From contig CAJXLT010000002.1 in assembly GCA_913056365.1 (NCBI GenBank), forward strand, positions 434,001 through 498,000: a DNA stretch of 64,000 nt, written 5' to 3'. A program made the position numbers and the translations under genes. This DNA is from an uncultured Paenibacillaceae bacterium (lineage in GTDB: Bacteria; Bacillota; Bacilli; Paenibacillales; K13). This document shows, piece by piece, positions 57,040 to 62,386 of the stretch; position 1 is the stretch's first letter; each line of letters opens with the position of its first letter. The notes beneath the pieces were generated by a model. The model searched no databases, was not told the DNA's origin, and saw nothing but the letters and a program-made list of their open reading frames with translations.

Positions 57040-57393
57040 TCAGCCTTTCGGCTTGAACACAAGGGCAGCAAGGAAGGAAAAGATGATCGCAGCAGATATC
57101 CCTCCGCTGGTCACTTCGAATATACCGGTAACGACGCCCATGATCCCGTCCCGCTCCAATTCCGACAGCGCGCCGTGCACTAGCGAATTGCCGAAGCTCG
57201 TAATCGGAACACTCGCTCCAGCACCGGCAAATTCCACAAGCGGGTCATACAGACCTAGTCCGTCTGCCACTGCGCCTGCGACGACTAACAAGCTCATCGT
57301 ATGACCCGGCGTCAGCTTCGCCACATCGAACATGAGCTGTCCGATGACACATATCGCACCGCCAACAAGGAATGCCCATACAAATTGCATCAT
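57040..57393 (-). CDS. spoVAE: Stage V sporulation protein AE
   Basis: A 117-aa membrane protein of the SpoVAE (AEb) family: FVWAFLVGGAICVIGQLMFD, then AGAGASVPITSFGNSLVHGA and GIFEVTSGGISAAIIFSFLA. It is homologous to SpoVAC. The SpoVA complex forms the forespore inner-membrane channel for dipicolinic acid uptake and release. Ends the operon DUF421-spoVAC-spoVAD-spoVAE. Confidence 0.95.
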   Translation of the reverse strand: MMQFVWAFLVGGAICVIGQLMFDVAKLTPGHTMSLLVVAGAVADGLGLYDPLVEFAGAGASVPITSFGNSLVHGALSELERDGIMGVVTGIFEVTSGGISAAIIFSFLAALVFKPKG

Positions 57394-57394
57394 C

Positions 57395-58408
57395 TTATAT
57401 CACCCCGCTTTCCAAGCATACCGCATGCGCAATGCACGGAATGCTCTCTCCTTGTTGGCTTGTGAGCGGCGAAAGCAACGCTCCGGTTGCAACGACGAGT
57501 ACCCGCTTCAACTCGCCTTGTTGAAGCTTCTTCATAATATGTCCGTATGTCACGACAGCCGAGCATGCACACCCACTGCCGCCTGCCCATACACTTTGGC
57601 GCTCCCGATCGTAGATCATCAATCCGCAATCATGGAAGGTTGTGTCGGCAATTGGTACTCGATGCTCGCGCAGCAATTCACCGGCTATATCATGACCGAC
57701 CTGTGCCAAATCACCCGTAACAATCAGATCGAAGTCTCCAGGCGCTCTTCCCGTGTCCTTCAAGTGAGCTTGGATCGTATCGACCGCAGCTGGTGCCATT
57801 GCGGCTCCCATGTTGTTCGGGTCCTTAATGCCCATATCCATAATGCGTCCGATCGTAGCTGATGCTACGCGCGGGCCGCTTCCTTCTGCCGCAAGTACTG
57901 CAGCGCCAGCGCCTGTTACAGTAAACTGTGCAGTCGGCGGCTTCTGTGCCCCGTATTCCGTCGGATAGCGAAATTGCTTCTCCGCCGACGAATTGTGACT
58001 GCACGTACCTGCCAGAACGTACTTGGCACCCCCGCTATTCACGATCATCGCAGCAATTGCCAAGCTTTCCATCGAAGTCGAGCAAGCGCCGAATACACCG
58101 ATGTACGGGATGCCCAAGGTACGCGCAGAGAACGTCGCGCTAATAATCTGATTCATCAGATCACCGCCGACGAAAAACTGCACATCCTCCTTCGTTAGCT
58201 TCGCATTTTCTATTGCAAGCTTGGCAGCTTCCTCTAACAGCATTCGCTCCGCTTGCTCCCAGCTTTTCTGCTTCAGTATGCTGTCTTCATGCACGATATC
58301 GAAATCTGCCGCGAGCGGTCCCTTGCCTTCGTAGGGACCAACAACCGTTGCCGTCGCTTGAATGACAGGTTGCTTGTCGAAGGTCCATGTTTGATGCCCG
58401 GTTAACAT
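57395..58408 (-). CDS. spoVAD: Stage V sporulation protein AD
   Basis: A 337-aa thiolase-fold protein that binds dipicolinic acid. Seen: DVQFFVGGDLMNQIISATFS, VFGACSTSMESLAIAAMIV (thiolase-like elbow), FTVTGAGAAVLAAEGSGPRV, and GGSGCACSAVVTYGHIMKKL near the C-terminus. The 1-bp gap to spoVAE and the shared base with spoVAC indicate coupling. Confidence 0.96.
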   Translation of the reverse strand: MLTGHQTWTFDKQPVIQATATVVGPYEGKGPLAADFDIVHEDSILKQKSWEQAERMLLEEAAKLAIENAKLTKEDVQFFVGGDLMNQIISATFSARTLGIPYIGVFGACSTSMESLAIAAMIVNSGGAKYVLAGTCSHNSSAEKQFRYPTEYGAQKPPTAQFTVTGAGAAVLAAEGSGPRVASATIGRIMDMGIKDPNNMGAAMAPAAVDTIQAHLKDTGRAPGDFDLIVTGDLAQVGHDIAGELLREHRVPIADTTFHDCGLMIYDRERQSVWAGGSGCACSAVVTYGHIMKKLQQGELKRVLVVATGALLSPLTSQQGESIPCIAHAVCLESGVI

Positions 58409-58884
58409 TAATGCGCACCCCCGCCGAGAATATGATGCAGAATTCCGATGAAGAAGGCAGCAACAACACCGAATACGATAACTGAACCGGCTAACTTGAA
58501 CATATTGCCGCCAACACCAAGCACTAGCCCTTCACTGCGATGCTCCAGCGCAGAAGAACATAGAGAGTTAGCGAATCCAGTCACCGGAACAGCCGCTCCA
58601 GCACCTGCCCATTGAGCGATCTTGTCGTAAACCCCGAAGCTCGTCAGCAAGACTGAAATAAATATGAGAATTGCCACAGTTGGATCACTCGCCTTGTCTT
58701 GCTCCATATCGAACCAATGGACCATAGCTTCCATAATCCCTTGACCCAAGACACAGATCGCGCCGCCCGCAACAAACGCACGAATGCAATTCAGCACAAT
58801 CGGTCTCGGCGGCTCCTTGCCCTTAGCTAACGCTTGATACTTCCGCTGCACCTGTGTCGTCTTCTTCATCTGCTGATTCGCCAT
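58408..58884 (-). CDS. spoVAC: Stage V sporulation protein AC
   Basis: A 158-aa SpoVAC, a mechanosensitive-type inner-membrane protein. It has the family blocks FVAGGAICVLGQGIMEAMVH and AGAGAAVPVTGFANSLCSSA, similar to SpoVAE. It starts at ATG 58884 with AGAGGAGCAG upstream and follows the DUF421 gene by 19 bp. Only AC, AD and AE are present; SpoVAA, AB and AF are absent here. Confidence 0.96.
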   Translation of the reverse strand: MANQQMKKTTQVQRKYQALAKGKEPPRPIVLNCIRAFVAGGAICVLGQGIMEAMVHWFDMEQDKASDPTVAILIFISVLLTSFGVYDKIAQWAGAGAAVPVTGFANSLCSSALEHRSEGLVLGVGGNMFKLAGSVIVFGVVAAFFIGILHHILGGGAH

Positions 58885-58903: not shown

Positions 58904-59770
58904 TTAGGAAGTCGTTAAGTAAGGCTCTATGCTATTCATAATCAGCTTCATTCGACCTGCGCCTTGCTCATACTGCTGCTTGGCTGCCTCATCTTGCGTA
59001 GACAAGGCGAACAATTCAAGATCCGCCTGGCATTTCTTCAAGGTCGCATACAACAGTTCTCTTGAAGAAGGAGCAGGCACCTTCAGCTGGTCATCATACA
59101 AATCCACGAACAACTCACCGTAAGAATTAGCTTGTCCCAGAAAGACGTTCTCCTGTAATACCCCCAATTTGTCCAGCTCTGTCTGCAGCCATCCGGGGTT
59201 CAGTCCTAGCGTTGCCAAACCTTCCAATACGAGCTCGCCATCCATAATAACGGTTTGCGGCTCTACTTGATTCGGCACCTTCACACCGAGATGAGCAGGA
59301 GTAATCGGCTGCTTATTCGGCTTCATCAATACAGAGAGCTCACCTGACGTTTCTAACAACGCGAATTCTACATCGGCATATTGGAAGGCGTTCTTCTGCC
59401 GCAATTGCTCCAGCAAGTCTTCTGTCGTATATCGGACTTTCGTCATATTGTCTTCCATGATCTTGCCGTCTTTGATCAACACCGTTCCTTTGCCATGCAC
59501 CAAATCACGGAGCCGCTTACTCTTCAAACTGAAAAACTCAATGCCAGCCATCACGACAGCCCATACAATTAATGCAACAAACCCGTACATCCAGTTGCGA
59601 TCAGGATGCAGAGAGATAAAGCCAACCATGCTGCCCAATGTAATGCCTGTGATGTATTCGAAGTACGATAGCTGCGTAATCTGGCGGCTGCCAAGAACAA
59701 AGCGCGTGATAATAAACAGCAATACTAAAGCTGACGCTGTCCGCAGCGCAACCTCCAACCATTGTGGCAT
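58904..59770 (-). CDS. DUF421 membrane protein with DUF1657-like C-terminal tail (YetF/2Duf type)
   Basis: A 288-aa protein starting at ATG 59770 (GGGAGAG upstream). Three helices (about residues 6-26, 34-50, 60-79) are followed by the cytoplasmic DUF421 domain (KGTVLIKDGKIMEDNMTKVR; TPAHLGVKVPNQVEPQTVIM). The last 46 residues, TLKKCQADLELFALSTQ onward, closely match the free-standing DUF1657 protein encoded divergently next door. It heads an operon with spoVAC-D-E. In Bacillus, DUF421 and DUF1657 genes accompany the mobile spoVA-2mob operon that raises spore heat resistance; I infer a related forespore-membrane role. Confidence 0.88.
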   Translation of the reverse strand: MPQWLEVALRTASALVLLFIITRFVLGSRQITQLSYFEYITGITLGSMVGFISLHPDRNWMYGFVALIVWAVVMAGIEFFSLKSKRLRDLVHGKGTVLIKDGKIMEDNMTKVRYTTEDLLEQLRQKNAFQYADVEFALLETSGELSVLMKPNKQPITPAHLGVKVPNQVEPQTVIMDGELVLEGLATLGLNPGWLQTELDKLGVLQENVFLGQANSYGELFVDLYDDQLKVPAPSSRELLYATLKKCQADLELFALSTQDEAAKQQYEQGAGRMKLIMNSIEPYLTTS

Positions 59771-59808
59771 CGATACAGTCTCTCCCTTATTGCAGCATTT
59801 GATATACA

Positions 59809-59838
59809 CATTATGAGCGCAATGCAACAAGCTTATGA
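59809..59838 (-). promoter_or_regulatory. Candidate sigma-G promoter of the DUF421-spoVA operon
   Basis: Minus strand: TCATA (59838-59834), an 18-bp spacer, CATAATG (59815-59809). Versus GHATR-N18-CATWHTA this is 4 of 5 and 6 of 7 with exact spacing. The transcript would start about 33 nt before the ATG at 59770. Forespore expression would fit the operon. Confidence 0.5.
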
Positions 59839-59917
59839 GTAGTGAAATATTGTCATTGATAAAAACCCGTAGAACAGACAAATTATAGATAAGATTCAGG
59901 AAAGGAGTGGTGAACAA

Positions 59918-60124
59918 GTGACTGTCGCATCTGATGTCAAAACATGCTTGGCATCCTTGAAAAGCGCGCAGGCGAGTCTAGAGCAATTCGCACTAAGTAC
60001 GCAAAATCAAGAGGCTAAATCATTATTCGAGCAAGCAGCTCAATCTACACAACAAGTCGTCGATCAAGTGAACACCCGCGTGCAACAATTGGAAAGCGAG
60101 GAGCCTCAGTACGAAGGCTTCTAA
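59918..60124 (+). CDS. DUF1657 small protein
   Basis: A 68-aa, coiled-coil, helix-rich protein (TVASDVKTCLASLKSAQASL, then EQFALSTQNQEAKSLFEQAA). It starts at GTG 59918 with AAAGGAG upstream. It belongs to DUF1657, small helical proteins encoded near spoVA and DUF421 genes. The block Q-A-x-L-E-x-FALSTQ is shared with the tail of the divergent DUF421 protein. Probably forespore-made; function unknown. Confidence 0.9.
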   Translation: MTVASDVKTCLASLKSAQASLEQFALSTQNQEAKSLFEQAAQSTQQVVDQVNTRVQQLESEEPQYEGF

Positions 60125-60266: not shown

Positions 60267-61637
60267 GTGAGCGAAAATTTCGAAACATTGCTTCTCCATG
60301 TATTGGTTCTAATTTTCCCTATTTTTATTTATCAGCTGTTTTGGCACGAGCGACCTGTGCGCAGCAGTGCTCCCCCTCCCCTGCTGATCGGGACATTATG
60401 CAGCTGTGGTGTCATTGTATGCATGCTGCTTCCGTATGAAATCGATTTTGGCTATACGTACGATCTGCGTATCATTCCGTTATTGATCAGTTATTTGTAC
60501 GGAGGACCCTTAGCTGGTCTGTTGAGTACCTTCATATATATATGCATGAGCTTCATTACCGGAGGAGAGGGATTCTGGTTCGTGCTTCAAGTTATCCTTC
60601 CTGTACTATTGATTGGCTACTTGTACACCGGAACATTCCAGAAGCTGAATCACAGCATTCGAATTACCACAGGGGTGGTGCTGAGCCTTGTTCACACGTT
60701 CGTATTCGTCATCGTGTATTGGCTCTATCATCCAGAGCTGCTTACTCTGAAGCATGTGCAATTGTTCAGCGGGATAGCTGGCATTCAAGCAACAAGCACA
60801 GCACTCGTCTTCTTCTTGATTGAGAAGATGCTGCGCAATGAGTCATTGCGTATGAAATTATGGCAAAGTGAAAAAAGCAAAGTCGTCCAACAACTGGCTG
60901 CCAGTGTGTCGCATGAGGTACGCAATCCATTAACAGCAACTACAGGATTCCTACAGCTTCTCAAGCAGCAAGAGCTCCCTGCTGCCAAACGAGAACTATA
61001 CATACAAGTCGCGCTCGACGAACTGAAGAAGGCCGAGTCCATCGTCTCGGATTACTTGTCCTTATCCCATTCTGACACCACTGTCAATGACACACTTAAT
61101 CTCAAGGCAGAGGCAGAAGCATGCATGACGATGCTAGGACCTTATGCCAAATTACACAATGTTCAAACCGTTGCTCAGATGTCCGAGAATATATTTATTT
61201 GCGGCAATCAACCAAAACTGAGGCAATGCCTTATTAATATGATGAGGAATGGGATTGAAGCGATGCCAAGCGGCGGTCAGCTCTTAATCAATCTCACTTC
61301 TAACAACAATCAACAGCAAGCTGTATTCTCGATAACTGATACGGGAACCGGCATGACCGAAGAACAAATTAAACATCTCGGCAGTCCGTTCTACGCACAT
61401 GCTGGCAAGGGAACTGGATTGGGACTGATGGTCGCATACAGTATCATTGATACGATGCAAGGATCTGTAGATATTGTCAGTACAGTAGGAGAAGGAACGA
61501 CATTCTCGATTACGTTGCCCATCAGCAAGGAGCATCCGAATTCTCCCATCTCATCAACAAGGAACCGCATCAAGTATGCCGTGTCACGGAAGCTGCACCG
61601 TATTATGGCCATGAACAGAACGCCCGACCGAAGGTAG
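60267..61637 (+). CDS. Sensor histidine kinase with 5-6 membrane helices (KinB-like)
   Basis: A 456-aa kinase starting at GTG 60267 (AGGTGATCGC upstream). Residues about 8-195 have six hydrophobic segments including PLLISYLYGGPLAGLLSTFI, a 5TMR-LYT-type region. A short linker leads to HisKA with LAASVSHEVRNPLTATTGFL (phospho-His about 216) and an HATPase domain: MMRNGIEAMPSGGQLL (N box) and DTGTGMTEEQIKHLG, KGTGLGLMV. This layout matches sporulation kinase KinB, which feeds Spo0F. No response regulator is adjacent, as expected for phosphorelay kinases. It lies between spoVA and sigK. Confidence 0.88.
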   Translation: MSENFETLLLHVLVLIFPIFIYQLFWHERPVRSSAPPPLLIGTLCSCGVIVCMLLPYEIDFGYTYDLRIIPLLISYLYGGPLAGLLSTFIYICMSFITGGEGFWFVLQVILPVLLIGYLYTGTFQKLNHSIRITTGVVLSLVHTFVFVIVYWLYHPELLTLKHVQLFSGIAGIQATSTALVFFLIEKMLRNESLRMKLWQSEKSKVVQQLAASVSHEVRNPLTATTGFLQLLKQQELPAAKRELYIQVALDELKKAESIVSDYLSLSHSDTTVNDTLNLKAEAEACMTMLGPYAKLHNVQTVAQMSENIFICGNQPKLRQCLINMMRNGIEAMPSGGQLLINLTSNNNQQQAVFSITDTGTGMTEEQIKHLGSPFYAHAGKGTGLGLMVAYSIIDTMQGSVDIVSTVGEGTTFSITLPISKEHPNSPISSTRNRIKYAVSRKLHRIMAMNRTPDRR

Positions 61638-61681: not shown

Positions 61682-62386
61682 TCACCTTTGCTTCTGTTTG
61701 TAAAACTCATGGTATAGCTTCATCAAGGCGCGTTTCTCAATACGTGAGACGTAGGAACGTGAAATCCCTAACTCCTTGGCGATCTCGCGCTGCGTACGCT
61801 CTTCCCCACCCTTCTCCAATCCGAAGCGGCCGCGAATCACTTCCTGCTCTCGATCATCTAGAATATGCAAGTGACTGTATATTTTCGTCTTTTCAATTTT
61901 GACCTGTACTTGATCCACAACCTCATCATGCTCGGTGCCAAGGATATCCTGCAACGTAATTTCATTTCCTTCCTTATCAGTCCCGATCGGATCGTGAAGG
62001 GAAACATCCTTGCGGGTTTTCTTCAGCGATCGCAAGTGCATGAGAATCTCATTCTCAATACAGCGTGCAGCGAAGGTAGCCAGCTTCGTGCCCTTATTCG
62101 GACTGTAGCTCTCAATCGCCTTAATGAGTCCAATGGTCCCGATTGAAATCAAATCCTCCTGATCCTCACCCGTATTGTCAAACTTCTTAACGATATGCGC
62201 AACAAGGCGCAGGTTATGTTCAATCAGAAGGTTGCGGGATACCGGATCACCTTCCGACATCCGCTGCAGATGCAGGGACTCCTCCTTTTCCTCCAATGGC
62301 TGGGGGAACACATTGCTCTTTACGTATGAGACGAGAAGCATCAATTCTTTCAAAAACATGGCAATGGCAGCAAATAATCCAGGCAC
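61682..62386 (-). CDS. sigK: RNA polymerase sigma-K factor (pro-sigma-K)
   Basis: A 234-aa late mother-cell sigma factor. The pro-sequence [20 protein letters not shown] (about 20 residues, hydrophobic) is intact. Region 2 has [20 protein letters not shown] and [16 protein letters not shown]; region 4 has [20 protein letters not shown]. The start is GTG 62386 with GGAGGTG upstream. The frame is continuous, so there is no skin-type insertion. It is activated by intramembrane proteolysis (SpoIVFB) in other species; that protease is not in the window. Confidence 0.97.

Follow-up and report, generated by a model that had tools for sequence, protein, structure and literature searches.

The window, which is the whole stretch of 64,000 nucleotides analysed here, holds a module of five genes (Table 1). 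A gene for a DUF421 protein with a fused C-terminal DUF1657 tail, the 2Duf gene, heads spoVAC, spoVAD and spoVAE, and a gene for a free DUF1657 protein diverges from it. The 2Duf stop (58904) and the spoVAC start (58884) are separated by 19 bp, and the ATG of 2Duf (59770) and the GTG of the free gene (59918) lie 147 bp apart; positions, strands and spacings are all as given in a preliminary description of this DNA. Ribosome-binding-site-like stretches precede both of these starts, and we prefer ATG 59770 as the 2Duf start over TTG 59917, the upper limit of the mechanical open reading frame. The module is adjoined by a membrane histidine kinase gene (60267-61637, plus strand) and a sigma-K gene (61682-62386, minus strand).

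Table 1. Features of the 2Duf module, in positions of the window
Feature	Coordinates	Strand	Description
2Duf gene	58904..59770	-	288 aa; 3 predicted N-terminal (membrane) helices, DUF421 domain, C-terminal DUF1657 tail
DUF1657 tail of 2Duf	58907..59059	-	residues 238-288, Pfam match 238-285; predicted two-helix hairpin 236-257 / 261-286
Free DUF1657 gene	59918..60124	+	68 aa, GTG start; predicted two-helix hairpin 3-27 / 31-61
Divergent intergenic region	59771..59917	.	147 bp
Candidate sporulation-type promoter, 2Duf operon	59809..59838	-	TCATA-N18-CATAATG
Candidate sigma-G-type promoter, free gene	59857..59885	+	TGATA-N17-CAAATTA
spoVAC	58408..58884	-	TIGR02838
spoVAD	57395..58408	-	NF009069 / TIGR02845
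spoVAE (spoVAEb type)	57040..57393	-	TIGR02839

Identity, predicted folds and promoter candidates

The DUF421 domain of the fused protein (Pfam E 3.3e-38) and its tail, whose residues 238-285 match DUF1657 (PF07870, E 2.8e-18), both exceed the gathering cut-offs, as does the free protein (PF07870 E 8.2e-21, 74.1 bits against a cut-off of 27.7), while a YetF_N match, at 21.7 bits, falls short of the 26.5 required. Over 39 ungapped residues, the 46-residue tail is 44% identical to the free protein (E 5e-10). The DUF1657 kinship of the tail, which the preliminary description had staked on a profile search, is therefore significant. Its proposal that the fusion is related to the proteins of spoVA2mob is also right, and the protein can be named: 2Duf is the published DUF421 plus DUF1657 protein of spoVA2mob (Tn1546) (PMC10126465), and the fusion is not unique to this chromosome. 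The window protein joins both domains in 288 residues, within the range of about 285-290 amino acids of 2Duf, and its gene lies near three spoVA genes. Moreover, when 67 tails and 65 free proteins are placed in one tree, a single branch (100/96; the columns are few and many forks open) separates all tails from all free proteins, which places the tail of the window with the other 2Duf tails by common descent and points to one split between tail and free protein, followed by separate histories.

The predicted structure of 2Duf (pLDDT 82, pTM 0.44) has three long N-terminal helices, a DUF421 fold and a tail hairpin, and the free protein is predicted as a hairpin (pLDDT 90, pTM 0.71). The solved soluble domain of YetF, 3c6f, matches 2Duf residues 82-225 by profile (E 2.1e-28) and by fold (E 8e-11). 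YetF and YdfS of B. subtilis have the DUF421 fold in common with 2Duf but carry no DUF1657 tail, and their genes do not adjoin the spoVA operon (PMC10126465). The third N-terminal helix of 2Duf is followed by a basic stretch, which suggests a core-side position for the soluble part of the protein. The free protein is 68 amino acids long in most rows of the alignment, with a nearly invariant C-terminal EEPQY that is absent from the tail in the window. Its model resembles, in fold only, the two-helix hairpins of EncB-type encapsulated ferritin-like proteins (7s5k and 7s5c, TM 0.83-0.87 by query length; Foldseek E 0.05). Iron storage by DUF1657 was considered on the basis of this match and rejected, given that E value and a free family that has no conserved histidine.

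We searched the divergent region for promoters with patterns that we take to be the consensus of each sigma factor, in 45 of 70 such regions (near-copies, and two regions shorter than 90 bp or identical ones, were dropped). A first scan of entire intergenic regions gave means near those of shuffles (9.63 vs 9.35; 9.83 vs 9.33). When only -10 sites 15-60 bp ahead of the start were allowed, a restriction chosen once the result of the first scan was known, the z scores on the free-gene side were 10.7 for sigma G, 5.3 for F, 1.7 for E, -0.4 for A and -1.2 for K, and those on the 2Duf side were 4.9 for sigma G, 5.0 for E, 4.6 for F, 3.6 for A and 2.8 for K. A putative sigma-G-type promoter is accordingly proposed, with some confidence, for the free gene only.

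Genome context, distribution and mobility

The window genome consists of 34 contigs with a completeness of 99.3. By profile search it contains one SpoVAC match, one SpoVAE match and two DUF1657 matches, all at the 2Duf locus, besides five DUF421 matches. Another contig carries, in succession, spoIIAB, sigF, spoVAA, spoVAB and, where spoVAF would be expected, a GerA-family gene, with no spoVAC-D-E there, and the classical arrangement of spoVAA-AB-AC-AD-AEb-AEa-AF behind spoIIA-sigF is thus absent from this genome. The suggestion that the chromosomal spoVA operon itself carries the fusion is therefore borne out in a stronger form than was claimed, since the profile search finds SpoVAC and SpoVAE nowhere else in the genome. 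Among genomes compared at the class level, G104, G144 and G191 have their spoVA genes together behind sigF in the classical manner. In four genomes of one genus (G021, G068, G078 and G086; f10/g18), no SpoVAC or SpoVAE match at E 0.001 is found among the matches listed.

A tree of 83 SpoVAD proteins, rooted by our own choice on the three classical rows, separates these from the rest by one branch (100/100) and has the window protein inside a set of 56 rows (98/94). This set contains all 35 rows that adjoin 2Duf in the order and six Bacillaceae rows of spoVA2mob-like order, and also L182, L186 and L190, which have no such neighbour. Outside it are 19 rows with no DUF421 neighbour (18 of family f10 and one from a P. 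ihumii genome) and five rows of f6, including one in which a DUF421 protein without a tail comes first. NF009069 is the top-ranking NCBIfam model for the SpoVAD of the window and for five other non-classical proteins, and NF006160 for two classical ones.

Related loci have been described, including the seven genes of spoVA2mob (PMC5133452), whose 2Duf is published, for that protein only, as tied to wet-heat resistance and the spore inner membrane. With spoVA2mob and the three-gene spoVA locus of B. cereus (PMC10126465, PMC5133452) the window shares the DUF421 plus DUF1657 architecture of about 285-290 amino acids and the neighbours spoVAC, spoVAD, spoVAEb and free DUF1657, and its SpoVAD belongs to the same clade as those of Bacillaceae loci with the spoVA2mob gene order. 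However, spoVA2mob is ordered DUF1657-yhcN-spoVAC-D-Eb-DUF1657-2duf on one strand, whereas in the window 2duf comes first and the single free gene is divergent; YhcN-family matches occur elsewhere in the genome and none in the window. Moreover, spoVA2mob is an extra operon beside another spoVA operon, and B. cereus likewise has a seven-gene spoVA operon, whereas the window holds the only SpoVAC and SpoVAE matches of its genome. The spoVA2 locus of Clostridium sporogenes PA 3679 comprises genes for a DUF1657 protein and a DUF421/DUF1657 membrane protein with spoVAC, spoVAD and spoVAEb, the membrane protein being entered next to SpoVAC in a figure legend (PMC5376575); it is one pentacistronic operon besides a native spoVA operon, in contrast to the divergent free gene and sole SpoVAC/SpoVAE locus of the window.

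We surveyed 99 genomes of the window's order, taken to be Paenibacillales from its named relatives. Among the matches listed, complemented from the collected loci and a further DUF1657 search, 95 of the 99 genomes have SpoVAC/SpoVAE and 68 have DUF1657; the layout of the window, with the free gene divergent from 2Duf-spoVAC, occurs in 39, and the divergent pair lies away from spoVAC in a further 18. The expectation that linkage to spoVA is conserved in relatives thus holds for many of them and fails for others. The remaining 11 of the 68 deviate (G003, G009, G013, G016, G018, G026, G054, G071, G072, G077 and G097); in G009, G016, G018, G054 and G071 the free gene is directly divergent from spoVAC and 2Duf lies elsewhere. 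A broken 2Duf remnant stands between the free gene and spoVAC in G097 (L095, 4846-5625), which has an intact 2Duf elsewhere. Both forms of DUF1657 are present in 67 of the 68 genomes, G072 having 2Duf only. In G004 (L097, 4818-5633 and 7966-8802) and G005 (L065, 5646-6665) the 2Duf pair is followed by a spoVAD-like gene with no adjoining spoVAC, and a dipicolinate synthase A-like gene is near the pair in G004.

Among 19 loci on GTDB contigs with close relatives, six from Paenibacillus (L047, L049-L052 and L064) are arranged like the window. In nine (L053-L061, of which eight are named as Bacillaceae and one as Paenibacillus sp. FSL R5-0490) the order is free1657-spoVAC-D-E-free1657-2Duf as in spoVA2mob, judged without yhcN, and the 2Duf gene of L061 is split in two frames. 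L046, L048 and L063 have 2Duf without these neighbours, and L062 has no tail. In family f17, the lone DUF1657 match of G104, G127, G144 and G172 is a free gene, which was not found near spoVAC, and G158 has one DUF1657 match whose form is not among the matches listed. The f17 loci L134-L137 have no DUF421 gene in the stretches collected, and each has a gene of about 780-796 amino acids nearby; the two that were scanned are a copper-type ATPase (L134) and a MutS2-like protein (L136).

The 2Duf protein, the fusion and the linkage are not new, because 2Duf is published and its place beside spoVAC is in print. The divergent layout in the order is new here: a literature search of the main texts of open papers found no description of it in Paenibacillales, and the main text of PMC10126465 does not mention "Paenibacillus". 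Also new are the sole SpoVAC/SpoVAE locus, the single split of tail and free protein, their joint erosion, the conservation ranking and the plasmid copy, as set out above and below.

Nearly identical copies of the module, or of its divergent pair, occur in several families. An 11.4-kb stretch around it is 97.7% identical between G006 (f6) and G032 (f5), and the free1657/2Duf pair is 98.6% identical in G096 (f10, 1545 bp) and 96.1% in G004 (f4, 1425 bp). These pairs (L084, L085, L075 and L097) are thus in genomes of four families, together with spoVAC-D-E in G006 and G032. The whole module is also found, with 99.1% identity, on a 62-kb plasmid of Paenibacillus urinalis (NZ_CP118103.1, 58933-62134; L235), which has VirB4- and VirD4-like genes and a tyrosine recombinase and is typed as non-mobilizable. 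Because near-identical copies occur in several families and on a plasmid, the sequences suggest that the module moves and has moved recently. No transposase was matched by Pfam among the ten neighbouring proteins scanned at the near-identical loci. On a Priestia megaterium plasmid (NZ_CP069399.1, 34186-47037; L236) the seven genes lie in the order of spoVA2mob, and an IS110 transposase and recombinases are nearby.

Joint erosion of the tail and the free gene

There is no free gene in 32 of the 99 genomes, 28 of which have spoVAC. In six of these 28 (G002, G014, G029, G038, G040 and G060) a DUF421 protein still heads spoVAC and its tail is decayed or absent; the other 22 have no DUF421 gene before spoVAC, and from elsewhere in these 22 genomes only the DUF1657-bearing gene of G072 was collected. 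With a model built solely from free proteins, we then scored the C-terminal parts of 70 2Duf-like proteins, drawn from 59 genomes. The 59 genomes are 52 of the 67 with a free gene and seven without one, L186 being dropped as lying outside the order.

All eight proteins of the seven genomes without a free gene scored at most 16.1 bits, and all 36 proteins flagged with a divergent free neighbour scored at least 22.2 bits. The other 26 proteins from genomes with a free gene ranged from no match to 48.8 bits. A tail of at least 21 bits, a cut chosen after the scores were known, is present in 49 of the 52 genomes with a free gene, and G058 and G085 have intact tails in uncollected second copies (58.9 and 57.5 Pfam bits). 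Counting these two, an intact tail is found in 51 of 52 genomes with a free gene and in 0 of 7 without one. The earlier idea that tail and free protein belong together is right. The exception is G026, which has a free gene and a tail of 15.9 bits by the free-protein model but 43.6 by Pfam. By the Pfam cut-off, one of the eight proteins without a free gene passes (G072, 36.2 bits). Among 11 low- or mid-scoring proteins with a free gene in the genome, four pass (G026, G027, G092 and G047) and seven fail, all seven in genomes with another intact 2Duf.

The association has a Fisher p of 3.5e-7 before G058 and G085 are added, a value that ignores kinship. On the tree of DUF421 cores, whose root is unsure because the outgroup fell apart, supported branches provide five independent pairs, of which a mean of 4.7 are concordant and 0 contrary (p 0.0625; with five pairs a sign test cannot reach 0.05). 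The DUF421 domains of the eight proteins without a free gene are still recognisable at 122-137 Pfam bits. However, the mean core score is 314 bits for the 16 tail-eroded proteins against 363 bits for the 54 tail-intact ones, and because of these lower scores, part of the erosion may be general divergence. Missed free genes were rejected as the cause of joint loss: open reading frames of at least 45 aa in the 1.5 kb upstream of 13 proteins gave a best score of 2.3 bits against the free-protein model (E 0.15), and genome-wide Pfam searches found no free DUF1657 genes in the seven genomes. Adjacency was also rejected as what keeps the tail intact, for in nine genomes (G032, G042, G044, G050, G075, G077, G089, G095 and G097) intact tails are present on 2Duf copies that no free gene adjoins. 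Tail intactness tracks the presence of the free gene in the genome and not its adjacency.

Conservation differs strongly between the parts. Over 32 loci of the linked layout, the mean pairwise identity is 0.79 for the free protein, 0.72 for SpoVAD, 0.70 for SpoVAC, 0.64 for the soluble part of DUF421, 0.51 for the membrane part and 0.50 for the tail; the free protein is the most conserved of these parts and the tail the least. In the same loci, distances revealed no co-evolution specific to tail and free protein (partial correlation 0.08), and the partial correlation of the free protein with the DUF421 soluble part was 0.28.

Possible roles of the tail and the free protein

In B. subtilis, SpoVAC, D and E form a channel for calcium dipicolinate across the spore inner membrane (PMC11841064). 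Here, 2duf-spoVAC-spoVAD-spoVAE would be an operon, probably expressed in the forespore, with the free DUF1657 gene divergent from it, and its SpoVA proteins would make the same channel in the inner membrane. 2Duf would be a protein of that membrane, probably forming a YetF-like tetramer whose DUF421 domains and DUF1657 hairpins face the core, and the free protein would be a soluble helical hairpin of the same fold as the tail. We consider it the best explanation, and hold it with moderate confidence, that the hairpin of the tail serves as a docking site for the free protein. By this pairing 2Duf would keep a cluster of free protein at the inner membrane, in many cases next to the SpoVA channel, and the two would together raise the wet-heat resistance of the membrane and its proteins. 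Docking is consistent with the joint loss of tail and free gene, with their shared predicted fold and with a divergent pairing that persists away from spoVA. For the window organism we infer the docking, the side of the membrane, the place beside the channel and the effect, and a role in membrane order, as first proposed, would draw on published work.

It is possible, though doubtful, that the free protein is instead an independent small forespore protein, which shares a promoter region and mobility with 2Duf and is lost with the tail through shared dispensability, with no contact between them. The four f17 genomes in which it is the lone DUF1657 match, away from spoVAC, the five genomes in which it stands beside spoVAC with 2Duf elsewhere, and the low tail/free correlation would all suit such a protein. 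Shared dispensability does not readily account for the six genomes without a free gene in which the DUF421 core stays next to spoVAC and only the tail is decayed or absent. These six genomes would favour a reading in which 2Duf chiefly assists the SpoVA channel as an accessory subunit, in its assembly or gating, with DUF1657 only fine-tuning it; the linkage is, moreover, kept in Clostridium, in Bacillaceae and in the window's order, with differing gene orders, in the published descriptions and our loci. We find this unlikely, since the pair is away from spoVAC in 18 genomes and most spoVAC genomes without a free gene (22 of 28) have no DUF421 gene before spoVAC.

The preliminary description left open whether tail and free protein "compete or co-assemble". 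Competition, in which the free protein would cap or block tail-tail pairing in the 2Duf tetramer and so regulate 2Duf, could draw on the same predicted hairpin fold with recognisable similarity and on divergent promoters that would permit separate dosage. It appears improbable, for the loss of a competitor should not alone make the tail decay, and conservation is far higher in the free protein than in the tail. Co-assembly or docking is favoured by the evolutionary data because tails are decayed in genomes without the free gene.

Within the docking explanation, the two partners may not be equal. Membrane proteins such as 2Duf are easily missed by proteomics. In heat-resistant spores of B. subtilis A163, free DUF1657 proteins gave 27 and 17 peptides and 2Duf was undetected (PMC8005191). 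These peptides, the stronger conservation of the free protein and its lone presence in f17 suggest that, of the two, it is the larger partner, anchored by the tail; the free protein can exist without the tail, since four f17 genomes hold the free gene only. A tentative extension, which we regard as rather doubtful, is that the main work would fall to free DUF1657 and not to 2Duf: an abundant hairpin protein, it would assemble under the inner membrane with the 2Duf tail as its anchor beside the SpoVA channel. The five-gene cassette would then be a self-contained and sometimes plasmid-borne wet-heat module that, in this lineage, also supplies the only dipicolinate channel of the cell.

The survey singles out one neighbour of 2Duf, the free DUF1657 protein. 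The genomes with an intact pair, those with the pair away from spoVA and those with a DUF421 core minus tail and free gene provide natural experiments on it, and the apparent movement of the module bears on the control of spores in food.
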